Shown in pieces: positions 7,717 through 17,035 of a DNA stretch of 64,000 bases. The number at the start of each line of letters is the position of its first letter. Positions within the stretch are counted from its first letter, which is position 1. Made by a program: the position numbers and the translations under genes. Source of the DNA: Stygiolobus caldivivus. Lineage in GTDB: Archaea > Thermoproteota > Thermoprotei_A > Sulfolobales > Sulfolobaceae. The notes beneath the pieces were generated by a model. That model ran no database searches, was not told the origin of the DNA, and saw nothing but the letters and a program-made list of their open reading frames with translations. The stretch covers positions 496,001 through 560,000 of the forward strand of contig NZ_AP024597.1 in NCBI RefSeq assembly GCF_019704315.1. Direction: 5' to 3'.

Positions 7717-8175
7717 ATGCCCCTAAGTAAAGGTTCAGACGCTCCAGATTTTGAAGCGGAATCGAGTAACGGTAAAGTTAAACTCTCAGATTATAGAGGA
7801 AAGTCAATAGTGGTACTCTATTTCTATCCAAAGTCCTTCACACCAGGTTGCACGAGAGAAATACAAAGGTTTGCAGAACTTTATGAGAAATTCAAAGAGT
7901 TAAACGCAGAGGTAATCGGAGTAAGTGTCGACTCAGTGACTACGCAAAAGCGGTTTGCTGAAAAGTATAACGCTAAGTTCCCAGTAGTATCAGATAAGGA
8001 AAAAAAGATAAGCGAGGCTTATCAAGTCCTAAATGAGAAAGGCACGAGTGCTCAAAGAGTTACGTTCATAATAGATGAAGAGGGAAAAATAGTAGAAGTG
8101 CTGGAAAAGTTAAAGAAAGCAGAAGAACATGCAGACAAAGCATTAGAAATTGTACGCAATTTGAGAAAGAGCTAA
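7717..8175 (+). CDS. bcp: Peroxiredoxin of the Bcp/PrxQ type, apparently 1-Cys
   Basis: This thiol peroxidase reduces hydrogen and organic peroxides in the cytosol. The 152-residue protein has the Bcp fold with PxxxTPGC(T/S) giving the peroxidatic Cys45 (FTPGCTRE) and the VIGVSVDS strand. No second Cys five residues after Cys45, nor anywhere else in the protein, is present, so it should act as a 1-Cys enzyme that needs an outside thiol. This resembles the Bcp2 type described in Saccharolobus solfataricus. It overlaps the convergent Nudix gene by 4 nt. Confidence 0.9.
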   Translation: MPLSKGSDAPDFEAESSNGKVKLSDYRGKSIVVLYFYPKSFTPGCTREIQRFAELYEKFKELNAEVIGVSVDSVTTQKRFAEKYNAKFPVVSDKEKKISEAYQVLNEKGTSAQRVTFIIDEEGKIVEVLEKLKKAEEHADKALEIVRNLRKS

Positions 8176-10707: not shown

Positions 10708-11133
10708 ATGAAAGGGACCCAGACAGAAATGGGATTAAAAGAGCTTTTTATGGCTAATTGTGAAGACCACCTACTCCTCTCCTTTACATCTGAAAAACTA
10801 TATGAATTAAACAAAAAAGATGAAGCCCAGATGGTAAAAGAAAAATCACTGGTAGAATTGGGGCATGCTAAAGGAATTCTAGAAAAATTAATAAAATATA
10901 TGGGGCTTGAGAGTATGAAGGATTGGCTAGAAGAAATCAAAAATAAAAAAGCAGAGAATATCAAGGAAGATTTTATGCTTACGTCTACAGTTTATCTCCT
11001 AAGTAAATTGCTTTCCGAAAAGGTAAGTGATACTAAAGAAAAGGAAGAACTGAAGGGCCAAGCAGAAGTTTACTACCAAAAAGCTAAGGAAAAATACGAG
11101 CAGGTTCTTGAATCAAGTATAAGTTCAGCCTAA
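10708..11133 (+). CDS. Uncharacterised helical protein
   Basis: This 141-residue protein is soluble, charged and predicted almost wholly helical. It contains EDH near residue 20 and ELGH near residue 51 that would be spaced like carboxylate/His ligands of a helical bundle, but I recognise no family. TATA-like sequence lies about 15-25 nt upstream of the ATG. It precedes a rubrerythrin-like gene on the same strand, 87 nt away. A link to metal or oxidative stress is inference only. Confidence 0.7.
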   Translation: MKGTQTEMGLKELFMANCEDHLLLSFTSEKLYELNKKDEAQMVKEKSLVELGHAKGILEKLIKYMGLESMKDWLEEIKNKKAENIKEDFMLTSTVYLLSKLLSEKVSDTKEKEELKGQAEVYYQKAKEKYEQVLESSISSA

Positions 11134-11179: not shown

Positions 11180-11187
11180 TTTATATA
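11180..11187 (+). promoter_or_regulatory. TATA box upstream of the duplicated rubrerythrin-like gene
   Basis: TTTATATA lies about 37 nt before the ATG at 11221, which predicts a short leader of roughly 10 nt. Between the two is GATAATGATAATTC (about 11197-11210), which resembles half-sites of metalloregulator operators such as Fur boxes. No regulator binding can be shown from sequence alone. Confidence 0.4.
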
Positions 11188-11220
11188 TCCCATTAAGATA
11201 ATGATAATTCGGGTACCTAA

Positions 11221-11595
11221 ATGTCCTACCTCAGCCTCGAAAAAATATTAAATGAGTTTGCAGAAAAAGAAGGAAAAGAACACGTAGATACTTACAACAA
11301 AGTAGCCCTAACAGCAAAAGCCGAGGGCTATGCAGACGTAGAAGCAATGCTATGTGCATACGCTGAGGAAGAAGCAAAAATAGCACAAACAGCAAAGAAC
11401 GTAAGTGAACTCCTAAAAGTAAAAGCACTACTCAGTGAGTTTGCAGAAAAAGAAGGAAAAGAACACGTAGATACTTACAACAAAGTAGCCCTAACAGCAA
11501 AAGCCGAGGGCTATGCAGACGTAGAAGCAATGCTATGTGCATACGCTGAGGAAGAAGCAAAAATAGCACAAACAGCAAAGAACGTAGCAGCATAA
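11221..11595 (+). CDS. Rubrerythrin/ferritin-like protein made of two identical helical hairpins
   Basis: The 124-residue protein consists of two 61-residue units whose 50-residue cores are identical. Each core follows the pattern of a rubrerythrin half: FAEKEG, then TY, an AKAEGY turn, and a second helix with EEEAKIA where an ExxHA iron-ligand motif is expected, the His being replaced by Ile. An EGKEH motif in the first helix could supply ligands. Two hairpins would build one four-helix bundle. Each repeat has one Cys (MLCAYA). Known relatives carry diverged halves, not identical ones. Function could be iron, oxygen or peroxide handling; metal binding is uncertain because of the missing His. 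Confidence 0.6.
   Translation: MSYLSLEKILNEFAEKEGKEHVDTYNKVALTAKAEGYADVEAMLCAYAEEEAKIAQTAKNVSELLKVKALLSEFAEKEGKEHVDTYNKVALTAKAEGYADVEAMLCAYAEEEAKIAQTAKNVAA
11253..11403 (+). repeat. Perfect 151-bp direct repeat, copy 1
   Basis: This segment is identical base for base to 11436-11586, at an offset of 183 bp (61 codons), so both copies are in frame. The 32-bp spacer and the nine codons before each copy align in protein pattern but differ strongly in DNA. Confidence 0.97.
11436..11586 (+). repeat. Perfect 151-bp direct repeat, copy 2
   Basis: This is the second identical copy of the repeat at 11253-11403. It ends three codons before the stop. Identity at every synonymous site points to a recent duplication, gene conversion or an assembly error. 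Confidence 0.97.
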
Positions 11596-11715
11596 AGAAA
11601 TCAATTTTTAGTCTTTTTTCTTATCTGTGGATTTAACTTCTATATTAGCTTAGGATCGGTAATACTTGTTACTTTCGCAAAATTATTAAATGTTTACCAT
11701 GACTAGTATTTTAGC

Positions 11716-13200
11716 ATGACAATAGGGTATATAGTAGGTTCAGCGACCACAGAACAAGCTACCGCACTTCTTGAAAAGAAAATAAGAAACGGGTACTATG
11801 TAGTAGTTGAATATGATGATGAAAAAGTCTTGGGTTTAGTCACTCAAACTTTCACCGGTAGTCCTCTTCTTGATAATAACCTTAGTGATATAGAATTTAT
11901 CCAGAAGATTAAGAAGTTTAATAACTCTATTCCTTATTTCATAAAAGCTAGAATTAAGTTGCTTTGTAAACTTAATAACAGCCTATCTAGACCAGACATC
12001 CCGCCTGTAGCGGGTTCCCCTATTAGATTGGCAACAGACGAAGAGCTTAGATCAGTATTTTCAAATGGAGAAATAAAAGTAGGTAAGGTCATAGGGACTG
12101 ATGTTGAAGTAAAGATAAGGCTCAATTCTCTCGCAAGGCACTTGGCGATATTGGCAGCTACCGGATCTGGAAAATCTAACACAGTCGCAGTGCTGTCATC
12201 ACGTATAGCGGAGAACGGAGGTTCAGTCCTCATCTTTGACTATCACGGGGAATATTTCGATAGCGAAATACCTAGACTAAACCAAATAGAGCCCAAGATC
12301 AACCCCCTAAAACTTACTGTTGGTGAGTTCGCTACGTTACTTGAACTGAGAGAAAACGCTAACATCCAATACAGAATATTAAGAAGAGCATTCAAACAGT
12401 TTGTGGAGGAAGTCAATAAAGGGATAGCAGAAAATACTATTAGTTTCGTTGAACTCAACAACAACTTCGTTCAGTTACTTTCGGATAAGGTAGAGCAAGT
12501 GTCAAAGGACGAAAAGAGAAAAGAAAGTAGGGACGAAGTATTAAATAAAATTGAAGACTTCGCCGACAGGTACGCTGAACTTATAGACTTCACTTTCGGC
12601 GATGTTATTGATAGACTTAAAGTAAGGAGCGTGAACGTGGTAAACCTGAGCTCATTAGACGAAGATGGCATTGACGCTGTAGTAGCACATTACTTAAGAA
12701 GAATTTTAAATGCACGAAAGGAAAACAAGTTAAAGAAAAACGGTGGACTTAAGTTCCCTATATTGTCGGTCATAGAAGAGGCGCATGTCTTATTATCAAA
12801 AGAGGAGAACACCCTGACCAAACACTGGGCAGGGAGGATAGCTAGAGAAGGTAGGAAATTCGGTGTAGGTCTGGTCATAGTGAGTCAGAGACCTAAAGGT
12901 CTAGACGAAAATATCCTGAGCCAAATGACTAATAAAATAATCTTGAAGATGGTAGAACCGACAGATAAAAAATACGTCTTAGAGACTAGTGATAACTTAA
13001 GTGAAGATCTAGTCGATGAACTTTCATCATTAGATACCGGTGAGGCGATAATGGTCGGGAATATCGTACGTTTACCCACTCTAGTTAAAATTGACAAATT
13101 TGAAGGAAAGCTAGCAGGTAGTGACCCTGATCTACTTAAAGAGTGGAAAGAAATAGAAGAGATAGAGAACAGGAACGCAGATACGGCATTCTGGGGATAA
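11716..13200 (+). CDS. herA: HerA bipolar DNA translocase/helicase
   Basis: HerA is a hexameric FtsK/VirB4-like ATPase that works with NurA in resecting DNA ends. The N-terminal HAS-barrel region precedes the RecA-like domain with Walker A ATGSGKSNT near residue 148 and Walker B LSVIEEAH near residue 350. The arginine-containing GREGRKFGVGL and SQRPKG segments are characteristic. At 494 residues it is full length. It is the first gene of the herA-mre11-rad50-nurA operon and stops 2 nt before the mre11 start. Confidence 0.95.
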   Translation: MTIGYIVGSATTEQATALLEKKIRNGYYVVVEYDDEKVLGLVTQTFTGSPLLDNNLSDIEFIQKIKKFNNSIPYFIKARIKLLCKLNNSLSRPDIPPVAGSPIRLATDEELRSVFSNGEIKVGKVIGTDVEVKIRLNSLARHLAILAATGSGKSNTVAVLSSRIAENGGSVLIFDYHGEYFDSEIPRLNQIEPKINPLKLTVGEFATLLELRENANIQYRILRRAFKQFVEEVNKGIAENTISFVELNNNFVQLLSDKVEQVSKDEKRKESRDEVLNKIEDFADRYAELIDFTFGDVIDRLKVRSVNVVNLSSLDEDGIDAVVAHYLRRILNARKENKLKKNGGLKFPILSVIEEAHVLLSKEENTLTKHWAGRIAREGRKFGVGLVIVSQRPKGLDENILSQMTNKIILKMVEPTDKKYVLETSDNLSEDLVDELSSLDTGEAIMVGNIVRLPTLVKIDKFEGKLAGSDPDLLKEWKEIEEIENRNADTAFWG

Positions 13201-13202
13201 CT

Positions 13203-14336
13203 ATGACGAGAATCCTCCATGTTTCGGATACACACTTAGGTAAAAGGCAGTACGATAGAGATTTCAGAGAAGACGATGTCTATGATACATTTAAACAAGT
13301 CATTGATAAAGCTATTGAAGAGAAAGTTGACGCCGTAATACATACAGGTGATTTCTTCGACAAGAATGAACCGCCTAACAAAGCAGTCCTAGTCGCACTA
13401 AAGGAGTTAAAGAGACTTAAAGAAAAGGGTATACCCTTTATAGCAATAGCCGGTGACCATGACTCACCGAAAAGGGGGAGTAGTATATTCCCGCAAAGGA
13501 TCCTAGAAGAAGAAGGTTTATTGGTACTGTTAGATCACCAAAAGACTGAGTACAGTATAGGTGACTTGAATATTCAAGGGCTATCCCATATCCCTCTTAC
13601 GGGTGCAAGCGTGCTGAAAGAGAGACTTGCTAAGATGAAACCAGCTTCGAAGAAGAGTATATTACTACTACACCAAGGTGTGAGGACATTACTACCCTAC
13701 CAGTACAGTTACCAGATAGACTTATCGGACCTACCTAAAGGCTTTGGGATTATAGCCTTAGGGCATTTCCACGATAGGTTTAAGACCGAGTTAGACGGGG
13801 GGACTGTTATAGAGATAGCCGGCTCACCTGAAATAATAAGTACGTCTGAAATTGAAGGTTATGAAAAGAATAAGAAAGGTATCACACTCATAGACTATTC
13901 TACTGCAGATCCAACTTTTACTTACATAAACATGGATATAAGACCCCAGTTTGAAGTGGTAATTAATACTGATAAGCTAGATAACGATATTAAGTCTATT
14001 GTGACTAAATTTAGTTCAATAAGTGGTAAAAAACCGATATTACATATTACGTTGGAAGGTTCACCAGTAAAAAAGAGCCTAATAGTTAACAGACTCAGAG
14101 AACTCTCTAAAGTATCTGAATATTATAGGATAGCCCACGATAATACTTCTTACCTCCCAGACCAGACCGAAGTTAGGCCCCCATCTTCTTCATCGCTGGA
14201 TGAAATGATTATGACGTATTTGACTAAAGTGGCGAATTACAATGAAACAGAAGCAAAACTAATCCTTAGCTTAATCCATGAAGAGGACGATGAAGAAATT
14301 ACAAAGATATTAAAGAAACTTTCGGGGTATGAGTAA
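13203..14336 (+). CDS. mre11: Mre11 nuclease
   Basis: Mre11 is the manganese-dependent exo/endonuclease of the Mre11-Rad50 complex, which processes double-strand breaks. The phosphodiesterase motifs are DTHLG, HTGDFFD, GDHD and the later GHFHDR. The open frame extends upstream to 13143, inside herA, but the ATG at 13203 gives the family N-terminus (MTRILHVSDTHLG) and 377 residues. The GGGGAT stretch at the end of herA can serve as a Shine-Dalgarno site. Only 2 nt separate it from herA and 2 nt from rad50. Confidence 0.95.
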   Translation: MTRILHVSDTHLGKRQYDRDFREDDVYDTFKQVIDKAIEEKVDAVIHTGDFFDKNEPPNKAVLVALKELKRLKEKGIPFIAIAGDHDSPKRGSSIFPQRILEEEGLLVLLDHQKTEYSIGDLNIQGLSHIPLTGASVLKERLAKMKPASKKSILLLHQGVRTLLPYQYSYQIDLSDLPKGFGIIALGHFHDRFKTELDGGTVIEIAGSPEIISTSEIEGYEKNKKGITLIDYSTADPTFTYINMDIRPQFEVVINTDKLDNDIKSIVTKFSSISGKKPILHITLEGSPVKKSLIVNRLRELSKVSEYYRIAHDNTSYLPDQTEVRPPSSSSLDEMIMTYLTKVANYNETEAKLILSLIHEEDDEEITKILKKLSGYE

Positions 14337-14338
14337 AG

Positions 14339-17035
14339 ATGATCGAGATAAGAAAAGTGAAATTGGAAAACTTCCTAAGCCATGAAAGATCCGAGGTCAC
14401 ATTCAGTCCCGGGATAAACGTAATTATCGGACATAACGGTGCTGGAAAGAGTTCAATAATAGACGCGATATATTTCTCTCTATTTAGAGAACCTGTAAGG
14501 AAAATTAGCCTAGAAGAGCTGATTAGAAAAGGTGCTAAAGACGCTTCAGTTGAGCTATTAGTCGAAGTAGATAACAGAAGCTATTTGATCTCACGTAATA
14601 TCAAGGGCGGTATAGTAGATACGCTAAGTGAATTAGTCCCCAATAAGTACAGTAAAACTATAGCTAGAGGAGCCAAAGAAGTAAATGAACACGTATACAA
14701 GCTGTTAGGTGCTAATGAAGATGTGTTTTCGTCTACATTGTTTATAGGCCAGGGTAAAATAGAGGAGGTCTTCGATAATTTATCTGAAATTATGGAGAAA
14801 ATCCTTAAATTAGAGAGAATGAACAAGTTGAGGGAAACTAACGGACCGATCCACTCATTAATAAAGGAAATCGAAGGAGAACTTAAGGTTATAGAGGAGA
14901 AGAAGAAACGACAGAAAGAACTTGAACATGGAATAGAGGAGAGCAAAAAGAAAGTAGAAGAAGAAGAGAAAGCCTTACATGAAAAGACTAAAGAGAAAGA
15001 AGAGATAGAAATTCGGATAAAAGAGAAGAAAGAAGAGATAAATAGCATAGAAGATAAAAGAAATAAGTTAATCTCTTTAACGAATCAGAAATCAAGATAT
15101 GAAAATGAGACCTCTAACATAAGAGAGAAATTAAAAGAAAGACCTCTTCTAGAGAAGAAGAGGGATGACCTTCAGAACTATATCAAGGACGAAGAGCCAC
15201 TAAATGAAAAATTAAAAGCAATTTCTGAGACATTAACACTACTTGACCAAATTAACCAGAGCGATAAGTTAATCCAAAAGTTAAGAGAAGAGTTAAGCAA
15301 AAAGAAAAGTGATCTCGAAGAGAAAAAGAAGCTGGAGGAAAAAGAAAGACGATACCGAGAACTTGATATGAGGAAAAACGAGCTGGAGGAAAAAGAAAAG
15401 CAATATATATCAAAAACAGCTGAACTGAGACGTGATAAGATAGCGTTAGAGGAAAAGGAGAGAAAACTTAAGGAATTCAAAGATATAGATACCTCGGAAT
15501 TAGAAGATAAAATAAAGAAAATAAAGGAGGAATTAGAGGAAAAGAGGAGGCAAATTGAAGGAATAAATTCTAGAAAAGGAGAGATAGAAGGAGAGATAAA
15601 GCAATTGTTAAATATTAAGCAAAATCTTCAGACTTTTAACAAATCTAATAAATGTCCAGTATGCGGGAGAGACCTTAGTGAACATGACAGAACAAGGATA
15701 GACATAGAAATAGAACAAAAAGTAAAGGAGCTATCGGCTAAAAAACTAGAACTGAACAAGGAATACCAAAACATAAATGTTCTAATACGCCAATTAGAAC
15801 AACTATTAGATAGAACAGAGAAAGAATTAAAGGAAGCACTAAGACATAAAGCACAACTTGACGCTCTAAAGAGTGACATACAACACCTACAAGACGAGAT
15901 AAGCGATCTTGAAAAAGAAGTAAGTGAACTTACACCTCTTCATGAAGAGTTTAAAAAAGTATCAGATGAACTAAAAATATTAGTAGATTATCATAACCGA
16001 TATTTAAAAGTTAGCAGTGTTAGTGAAGAAGAAGTTGCTAGACTAGAAGACGAACTACAAAAAGAGGTTGTAGAAAGGGATAGGAGACAAGAAAACTTGA
16101 AGAAAATTTTGAAAGATAAAGGGCTACCTACAGACAAAAAAGAGTTGATTGCTCTCGGTGAAGAAATAGAAAATAAATTGAAAGAAATTAAGAAGAAAAA
16201 GGACGAATTAAGTAACATACAATCCAAGTTGGCTATACTAGAAAGTGAAGAGTCAAGACTCCTAAATCTGGAAAATGAATTGAAAGAAATTGAAAGACAG
16301 ATAAAAGAACTTAATTTCAGAGAGGAAGACTACGCTCTAGCGAAGCAAGAGCTAGATGAGTTGCAACGTGAGTATACTAATCTTACAACTGAAATAGGTA
16401 GGTTAAGCGGGGAGATTACTATTCTTAAGACTAATATAGAAAAAAATAACCAAGAATTAAATGAAATTAAAAAGGAGTTAGAAAAAGAGGAAAAATTAAT
16501 AAACGCAAAGAAGAAGTTAGAAAAATTAAGAGATGTATTAAATGAAAAGAATTTACAAGCCTTCCTCAAGAATAATGCTAAATCTTCCATAGAGAATAAC
16601 CTCGTATCTATCTTATCTAAATTTGACCTATCTTATAGAGCACTGGAGCTAAACTTTGATAAGGCAGGTTCGAAGGGTAAGAACAAGGTTAGTTCTATTA
16701 TAGTCTTTAATGATAAAGGGGAAGAAGTTTCTGTTAATGCACTAAGCGGAGGGGAAAGGACCTCAATTGCATTGGCCCTAAGATTAGCCATAGCAAGATC
16801 TCTTATGAAGGGCGCTGGGATCTTGATACTTGATGAACCTACAGTAAACCTTGATGAGTATAGGAAGAGGGAGCTCATAGATATTATACGATCATCATTA
16901 GAAATTGTCAACCAAATAATTCTGGTCACACACGACGAGGAGCTGATGGAAGCCGGAGATTACGTACTTAAGTTAGAAAAAAGAGGTGGAATTAGTAAAG
17001 TAGAGGTGGTCTCAAATAATCAGCAAGCTCTATAA
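14339..17035 (+). CDS. rad50: Rad50 SMC-family ATPase
   Basis: Rad50 is the ATPase and tether of the Mre11-Rad50 complex. The N-terminal Walker A is GHNGAGKSS near residue 32. A long antiparallel coiled coil runs from about residue 170 to 730, interrupted by the zinc hook CPVC near residues 438-441, which dimerises through Zn2+. The C-terminus has the signature LSGGERTS and Walker B ILILDEPT. At 898 residues it is in the archaeal size range. It starts 2 nt after mre11. Its last codons overlap the probable real start of nurA. Confidence 0.96.
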   Translation: MIEIRKVKLENFLSHERSEVTFSPGINVIIGHNGAGKSSIIDAIYFSLFREPVRKISLEELIRKGAKDASVELLVEVDNRSYLISRNIKGGIVDTLSELVPNKYSKTIARGAKEVNEHVYKLLGANEDVFSSTLFIGQGKIEEVFDNLSEIMEKILKLERMNKLRETNGPIHSLIKEIEGELKVIEEKKKRQKELEHGIEESKKKVEEEEKALHEKTKEKEEIEIRIKEKKEEINSIEDKRNKLISLTNQKSRYENETSNIREKLKERPLLEKKRDDLQNYIKDEEPLNEKLKAISETLTLLDQINQSDKLIQKLREELSKKKSDLEEKKKLEEKERRYRELDMRKNELEEKEKQYISKTAELRRDKIALEEKERKLKEFKDIDTSELEDKIKKIKEELEEKRRQIEGINSRKGEIEGEIKQLLNIKQNLQTFNKSNKCPVCGRDLSEHDRTRIDIEIEQKVKELSAKKLELNKEYQNINVLIRQLEQLLDRTEKELKEALRHKAQLDALKSDIQHLQDEISDLEKEVSELTPLHEEFKKVSDELKILVDYHNRYLKVSSVSEEEVARLEDELQKEVVERDRRQENLKKILKDKGLPTDKKELIALGEEIENKLKEIKKKKDELSNIQSKLAILESEESRLLNLENELKEIERQIKELNFREEDYALAKQELDELQREYTNLTTEIGRLSGEITILKTNIEKNNQELNEIKKELEKEEKLINAKKKLEKLRDVLNEKNLQAFLKNNAKSSIENNLVSILSKFDLSYRALELNFDKAGSKGKNKVSSIIVFNDKGEEVSVNALSGGERTSIALALRLAIARSLMKGAGILILDEPTVNLDEYRKRELIDIIRSSLEIVNQIILVTHDEELMEAGDYVLKLEKRGGISKVEVVSNNQQAL

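Follow-up and report, generated by a model that had tools for sequence, protein, structure and literature searches.

The gene at 11221-11595 of the window, by which the whole analysed stretch of 64 kb (64,000 nucleotides) is meant, part of a complete archaeal genome of 2,958,410 bp (G000), encodes two tandem copies of a helical hairpin that appears to derive from the C-terminal (CD) half of a rubrerythrin. Comparison with its orthologues shows that the copies are old and that in many lineages they have been kept base-identical by recurrent intragenic homogenisation, which takes the form of gene conversion in patches together with gains and losses of entire units, atop strong purifying selection on the protein. 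The explanation preferred here as a whole is that of a homogenised array of CD hairpins that would have an AB-type hairpin as partner, pair into bundles, carry di-metal sites and serve in stress protection; its probability is put at about 0.72.

The halves are identical over 151 nt at an offset of 183, as the preliminary description had it, and the match extends to 158 nt at 98%. They constitute the sole direct repeat of at least 60 nt in the window and the only array within it that scores at least 100 in TRF. The nucleotides ahead of the copies differ, the leader reading ...AAAATATTAAA and the linker ...GCACTACTCAG, while both encode a similar pattern (EKILNEF and VKALLSEF); the early observation that these codons have diverged with the protein pattern kept is thus accurate. 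The gene is strongly codon-biased (GTA in 9 of 9 cases, GCA in 19 of 25), and this bias, together with the TATA-like box and the T-rich tract 3' of the gene, suggests a separate, well-expressed transcript, to judge from the sequence. The features are collected in the table.

Features of the array gene and its neighbourhood (positions in the window)
Feature	Position	Strand	Remarks
AhpC/TSA (Bcp-type) peroxiredoxin gene	7717..8175	+	apparent counterpart of bcp3/SSO2255
AB-type hairpin gene, separate	10708..11133	+	intact ExxH (VELGHA) and C-terminal helical extension
Putative TATA-box-like element, TTTATATAT	11180..11188	+	about 33 nt 5' of the array start codon; proposed from the sequence
Array gene, two tandem CD-type rubrerythrin hairpins	11221..11595	+	124 aa; split form without N-terminal hairpin
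Homogenised tract, copy 1	11253..11403	+	151 nt, identical to copy 2
Codon of Glu17, invariant	11269..11271; copy 2 11452-11454	+	equivalent of sulerythrin ligand Glu92
Codon of His21, invariant	11281..11283; copy 2 11464-11466	+	one turn after Glu17; candidate replacement ligand
E51-x-x-I54	11371..11382; copy 2 11554-11565	+	bridging Glu126 kept, His129 replaced by invariant Ile (PMC9589262)
Diverged inter-unit linker SELLKVKALLS	11404..11435	+	position-specific; predicted continuous helix
Homogenised tract, copy 2	11436..11586	+	151 nt, identical to copy 1
T-rich tract, possible archaeal terminator	11605..11621	+	just 3' of the array stop; proposed from the sequence
herA	11716..13200	+	conserved downstream neighbour of the array
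mre11-type gene	13143-14336		after herA; named from ORF sequence and S. solfataricus gene order (PMC1995220)
rad50-type gene	14339-17035		named from ORF sequence and S. solfataricus gene order (PMC1995220)

How do two halves of one gene come to agree at every base? A very recent tandem duplication in the host genome, which had been offered as an alternative to gene conversion, or an assembly error by which one half was duplicated, would readily yield 151 nt without one difference. An artefact is excluded as the sister genome G001 independently has the same two-unit layout. G001 also has the same linker and leader codons, yet its copies differ from those of G000 by 10 synonymous differences each, and at these 10 codons both copies of a genome carry the same species-specific variant. 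In the same pair of genomes herA and the AB-hairpin gene each show a pS of 0.79, herA being near saturation, and the shared variants together with this divergence indicate that the duplication is not young. Moreover, the linker pattern LKVK.LL is common to g2 and g8 and partly to g4, the linker of the window gene being related to those of all three, and multi-unit genes occur in nearly all genera, so that layout and linker extend from the sister species to further genera. Recent duplication or artefact is accordingly considered highly improbable.

The evidence for concerted evolution comes from a core of 45 codons compared for synonymous differences. Within a gene the copies show none in G000, G001, G003, G012 and G007, nor in any of the six g10 (Metallosphaera-type) genomes, and the synonymous identity extends to arrays of three and four units, whereas between species of the same genus pS in this core is 0.31 (g1), 0.39 (g3) and 0.28-0.81 (g10). 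At a rate of 0.31, the chance that none of 29 synonymous sites differs is 2e-5 per species. Copies within a genome are, in other words, more alike than orthologues between species, as expected for concerted evolution, and a tree of 65 units groups them by genus and never by position across genera (10 changes, the minimum). Mosaic tracts with surviving position-specific flanks were also found. Copy 1 of G013 has the alleles of copy 2 in its 3' half, and copy 2 of G015 and G028 has those of copy 1 at nt 15-102. Of the g5 pair, only G014 is homogenised, unlike G005. In both G000 and G001 the codons immediately ahead of each copy have retained a sequence specific to that position. Gene conversion in the core, which had been suggested from the window gene, is thus strongly supported, the cores having been homogenised separately in each lineage and partly in incomplete tracts. 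Among the orthologues the halves are identical in many lineages and diverged in g2, g4 and g6, indicating that homogenisation is recurrent rather than constant and that identity is not required everywhere.

An explanation of the identity by codon bias alone was rejected, since both copies share the same species-specific synonymous variants. In g1 and g3, synonymous divergence of the array is 0.30-0.43 as compared to 0.79-0.87 for herA (L001/L003 and L017/L023), and this lower divergence suggests a constraint on codons or at the RNA level in addition to conversion. Between G005 and G014 (L014, L021) the relation is the reverse, with a synonymous divergence of 0.46 for the unit and 0.18 for herA; import of a foreign unit is possible in this pair.

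Unequal crossing-over with repeated expansion and contraction could likewise render the copies identical, in the manner of birth-and-death evolution and in place of gene conversion. The number of units varies from one to four, every array of three or four units is homogenised, and two loci that are 98% identical in the region, L041 with two units and L049 with one (upstream flanks 98.3% identical), differ by exactly one unit, albeit exact repeats can collapse in assemblies. Two-unit genes, however, show the partial tracts and surviving position-specific flanks described above for G013, G015, G028 and the G000/G001 pair, which is the signature of conversion. For crossing-over in place of conversion somewhat lower odds than even are given, and the two processes are not mutually exclusive.

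The repeated unit is most readily understood as a rubrerythrin CD hairpin. In a search of PDB profiles with a family profile built from 27 aligned orthologues, the top 18 matches were rubrerythrins and sulerythrins (E 1.8e-4 to 0.05), and encapsulated ferritins, which are two-helix ferritin-like proteins, were not among the 21 PDB profile matches. The unit can be aligned with no gap to 60 residues in the C-terminal half of the sulerythrin that the host itself encodes (G000:C1:649544), with Glu17, Tyr25, Glu51 and Ile54 falling on Glu92, Tyr100, Glu126 and His129; the first three of these sulerythrin residues lie at or beside the di-metal site (PMC9589262). These two lines of evidence bear out the rubrerythrin relationship proposed initially. 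It is detectable by profile or fold (PDB profile search, Foldseek), while in the Pfam family Rubrerythrin (PF02915) the array protein scores 12.3 bits, below the cut-off of 22.8, and L031, a member with both AB and CD hairpins, scores 21.6 bits, just below it. Individual members gave Pfam matches to XTBD, DUF1081, Phage_CII and DUF3240, which were dismissed because they are inconsistent between orthologues and fit chance similarity of composition or repeats. Compared to sulerythrin of Sulfolobus tokodaii (PDB 1J30), a rubrerythrin without rubredoxin domain, the CD hairpin is alike over the 60 gap-free residues and the equivalents of Glu92, Tyr100 and Glu126 are kept, whereas the array ORF is devoid of the AB hairpin and of the B-to-C crossover, has Ile in place of His129, does not conserve Glu95, and has its hairpin repeated and the copies homogenised. 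A second match in the host genome (L002, E 0.027) was set aside as unrelated; it looks HEPN-type and lies beside a nucleotidyltransferase, the pair at L002 1462-2228 resembling HEPN plus minimal nucleotidyltransferase. The host also encodes, at G000:C1:2683320-2683697 (L081), a 353-residue protein that matches Rubrerythrin of Pfam with its N-terminal part at 35.4 bits, above the cut-off, this part being apparently joined to another domain.

Ferritin-like bundles are thought to have arisen by hairpin duplication, and the preliminary description had taken the gene for a living form of that step. The part of this claim that stands is the change in hairpin number, which ranges from one to four and differs by one unit between the near-identical loci L041 and L049. 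Two identical hairpins in one chain and a variable unit number would also suit a surviving relic of the primordial duplication that built the ferritin fold. The unit nevertheless matches specifically the CD half of sulerythrin, it is accompanied by an AB hairpin with ExxH, and among the genomes searched only Sulfolobaceae and a portion of the Acidiplasma order have the family, all of which speaks for derivation from a complete rubrerythrin and renders a relic very unlikely. By its sequence relationships, the unit thus appears to be the C-terminal hairpin of a complete rubrerythrin that was amplified secondarily, and not a pre-ferritin hairpin, and the array protein a derived, variable-length rubrerythrin relative from Sulfolobaceae and certain acidophiles of the Acidiplasma order.

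Of the 31 Sulfolobaceae genomes searched, 30 have an orthologue of the array gene, which adjoins herA in nearly every case; the one genome without is 71% complete. In nearly all Sulfolobaceae herA lies downstream of the array and a gene for NAD(P)HX epimerase upstream. A first scan of genome contigs with the single array protein gave no match, the viral contigs searched contained no relatives, and an even sample of the host's order and phylum yielded no further members of the family. Two candidates from the same phylum outside Sulfolobaceae (G530 and G031) turned out to be ordinary rubrerythrins with ExxH-type ligands in both halves. The gene is present in 12 of 117 genomes of the order containing Acidiplasma aeolicum, there too with near-identical units (one to three), and this occurrence implies lateral transfer between acidophiles of two archaeal phyla. 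Proteins common to Thermoplasmata and Sulfolobus have been reported, including Saci_0054 and Saci_0055 (PMC1852104). Since they form a pair and are shared with Thermoplasmata, the two are probably the array gene of S. acidocaldarius and its separate gene for the AB hairpin; in the portion of that source considered here they figure only as a lineage-specific signature, without analysis of repeats.

The repeat unit comprises about 55 residues and recurs with a period of 55-61 residues. One unit is found in g9 and g11, two in g1, g2, g4, g5, g6, g8 and part of g10, three in g3, g7 and part of g10, and four in G027. In L043/L052, L047/L053 and L037 the repeat is interrupted by a run of N or cut off where the contig stops, which makes unit counts in draft genomes unreliable. 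N-run gaps lie in two arrays and a contig end in another, and short-read assemblies will miscount the units. The AB hairpin, with canonical ExxH (ExGHA in most Sulfolobaceae), is fused ahead of the array in g5, g6, g7, g9, g10 and the Acidiplasma order and encoded by a separate adjacent gene in g1, g2, g3, g4, g8 and g11. In g3 (L017, L023) this adjacent gene is oriented opposite to the array. In the window the separate AB-hairpin gene has no Pfam match up to an E of 1. The AB hairpin hence accompanies the array in every Sulfolobaceae genus examined, within the same protein in some lineages and as the product of an adjoining gene in the rest, which at the level of sequence is good evidence that the two function together.

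Does such a unit still bind metal? None of the 27 orthologues in the alignment departs from Glu17, His21, Tyr25, Glu51 and Ile54 in unit 1 or from the corresponding residues of unit 2. ExxI in place of ExxH in both halves (E51-I54 and E112-I115), pointed out from the beginning, was found as described, and the CD-type units keep both Glu and have ExxI in 27 of 27 rows. The equivalent of sulerythrin Glu95 is not conserved in the family, and the array ORF lacks the full ligand set of rubrerythrins, a Glu plus ExxH on both AB and CD, the AB half being encoded at 10708-11133. The position of His21 is occupied by an aromatic residue in sulerythrin and by various residues in rubrerythrins; its invariance makes it a candidate metal ligand. 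From the initial conclusion that the metal site must differ or be lost, the first part is retained, as the ExxH histidine is gone and another invariant His is present, while loss is not evident since both Glu and the second-sphere Tyr are invariant; the site would thus seem changed rather than clearly lost. With two units paired, four Glu and two His would be available, as is usual.

An AF2 model of the array protein from a 10-row alignment has helices at residues 3-34, 38-95 and 99-123 with a pLDDT of 84 and a pTM of only 0.55. Two helices per half, as originally assumed, are predicted, but helix 2 of the first half and helix 1 of the second form a single continuous helix of 58 residues (38-95). 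Foldseek with this model returned sulerythrin and rubrerythrin at a probability of 1.00, the best natural match having an E of only 0.03; natural matches were mainly sulerythrin, rubrerythrin and ferritins, mostly at probabilities of 0.9-1.0 and with a high rmsd, which is due to the model not being a closed bundle. Structure prediction, one of the checks foreseen, thus agrees with the rubrerythrin relationship at weak E-values. The model of a form with N-terminal hairpin and three units was too poor to use (pLDDT 59). From Glu51 to the next Glu17 equivalent (E78) there are 27 residues here and 21 in arrays with a 55-residue period, as compared to 39 residues between Glu53 and Glu92 of sulerythrin (PMC9589262), so that the usual B-to-C crossover is hardly possible; the long B-to-C connection that closes a four-helix bundle is absent, the linker being predicted as helical. 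Since the connection between units is a continuous predicted helix and too short for such a crossover, the natural reading would be that hairpins pair between chains, by analogy to sulerythrin, which has been described as a domain-swapped dimer (PMC12833474).

Taken together, the CD hairpin has left the plan of one AB plus one CD hairpin and become one to four tandem copies, in many lineages kept identical by recurrent intragenic conversion and gain and loss of units. Hairpins would form four-helix bundles between chains or with the AB hairpin of the neighbour, and each bundle might bind two metals through Glu17 and Glu51, which the unit has kept, with either His21 standing in for the missing histidine of ExxH or the AB partner supplying a His. 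The role could be protection against peroxide or metal stress. Such a role would be in line with observations on SSO2253 of S. solfataricus, which was seen only in nickel-treated cells, as was Bcp3 (SSO2255), and which was predicted to be ferritin-like with weak similarity to rubrerythrin, lies 87 nt before herA, and was described with no mention of internal repeats (PMC1995220). By position and family SSO2253 is the orthologue of the array gene; it is likewise upstream of herA (SSO2251) and near bcp3 (SSO2255). The form in g6, apparently Saccharolobus, has the AB hairpin fused, whereas the window gene is split.

The main rival to this account regards the array as a metal-free structural protein, a coiled-coil rod or adaptor of the HerA-Mre11-Rad50-NurA machinery. 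The conserved position beside herA, the predicted continuous 58-residue helix and the loss of the ExxH histidine would all suit a scaffold, and the top Foldseek match is in fact a de novo antiparallel coiled-coil bundle. Against a scaffold speak the invariance of Glu17, His21, Tyr25 and Glu51 in both units of 27 rows, where three of these residues correspond to the metal site of sulerythrin, and the joint appearance of SSO2253 and Bcp3 in nickel-treated S. solfataricus. At the loci of the Acidiplasma order, moreover, herA was not seen in the roughly 1.5 kb of flanking sequence examined. A scaffold is thus rather unlikely. For the array as a di-metal protein of oxidative or metal stress, the best guess from sequence comparison, the odds are judged to be roughly even. 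A more far-reaching proposal is tentative and itself on the unlikely side: the protein would be a homogenised string of half-domains of variable number whose hairpins pair across chains or with AB hairpins to symmetric Glu/His/Glu di-metal sites, the number of units setting the number of sites and conversion keeping the hairpins interchangeable.

Polyubiquitin is a known parallel, as its in-frame head-to-tail units are kept identical by conversion or unequal crossing-over, their number varies and the chain is cleaved into monomers. In contrast, the units of the array are helical half-domains, and no processing site was seen. Concerted evolution of whole paralogous genes has been documented in archaea, and all seven archaeal cases listed are methanogens (PMC6053082). 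As in those cases, copies within a genome are more alike than orthologues between species, recurrently and over long times, but here the copies are half-domains inside one gene of non-methanogen archaea. The array is thus a clear example, in archaea other than the methanogens of that study, of concerted evolution long sustained within one gene, and the homogenised array adjoins the recombination genes herA-mre11-rad50. Furthermore, the members of the family have one, two, three or four hairpins, in fused or split form and with identical or diverged copies, and this natural series lends itself to testing how half-domains can be assembled into ferritin-like bundles, a step that is usually argued from symmetry alone.
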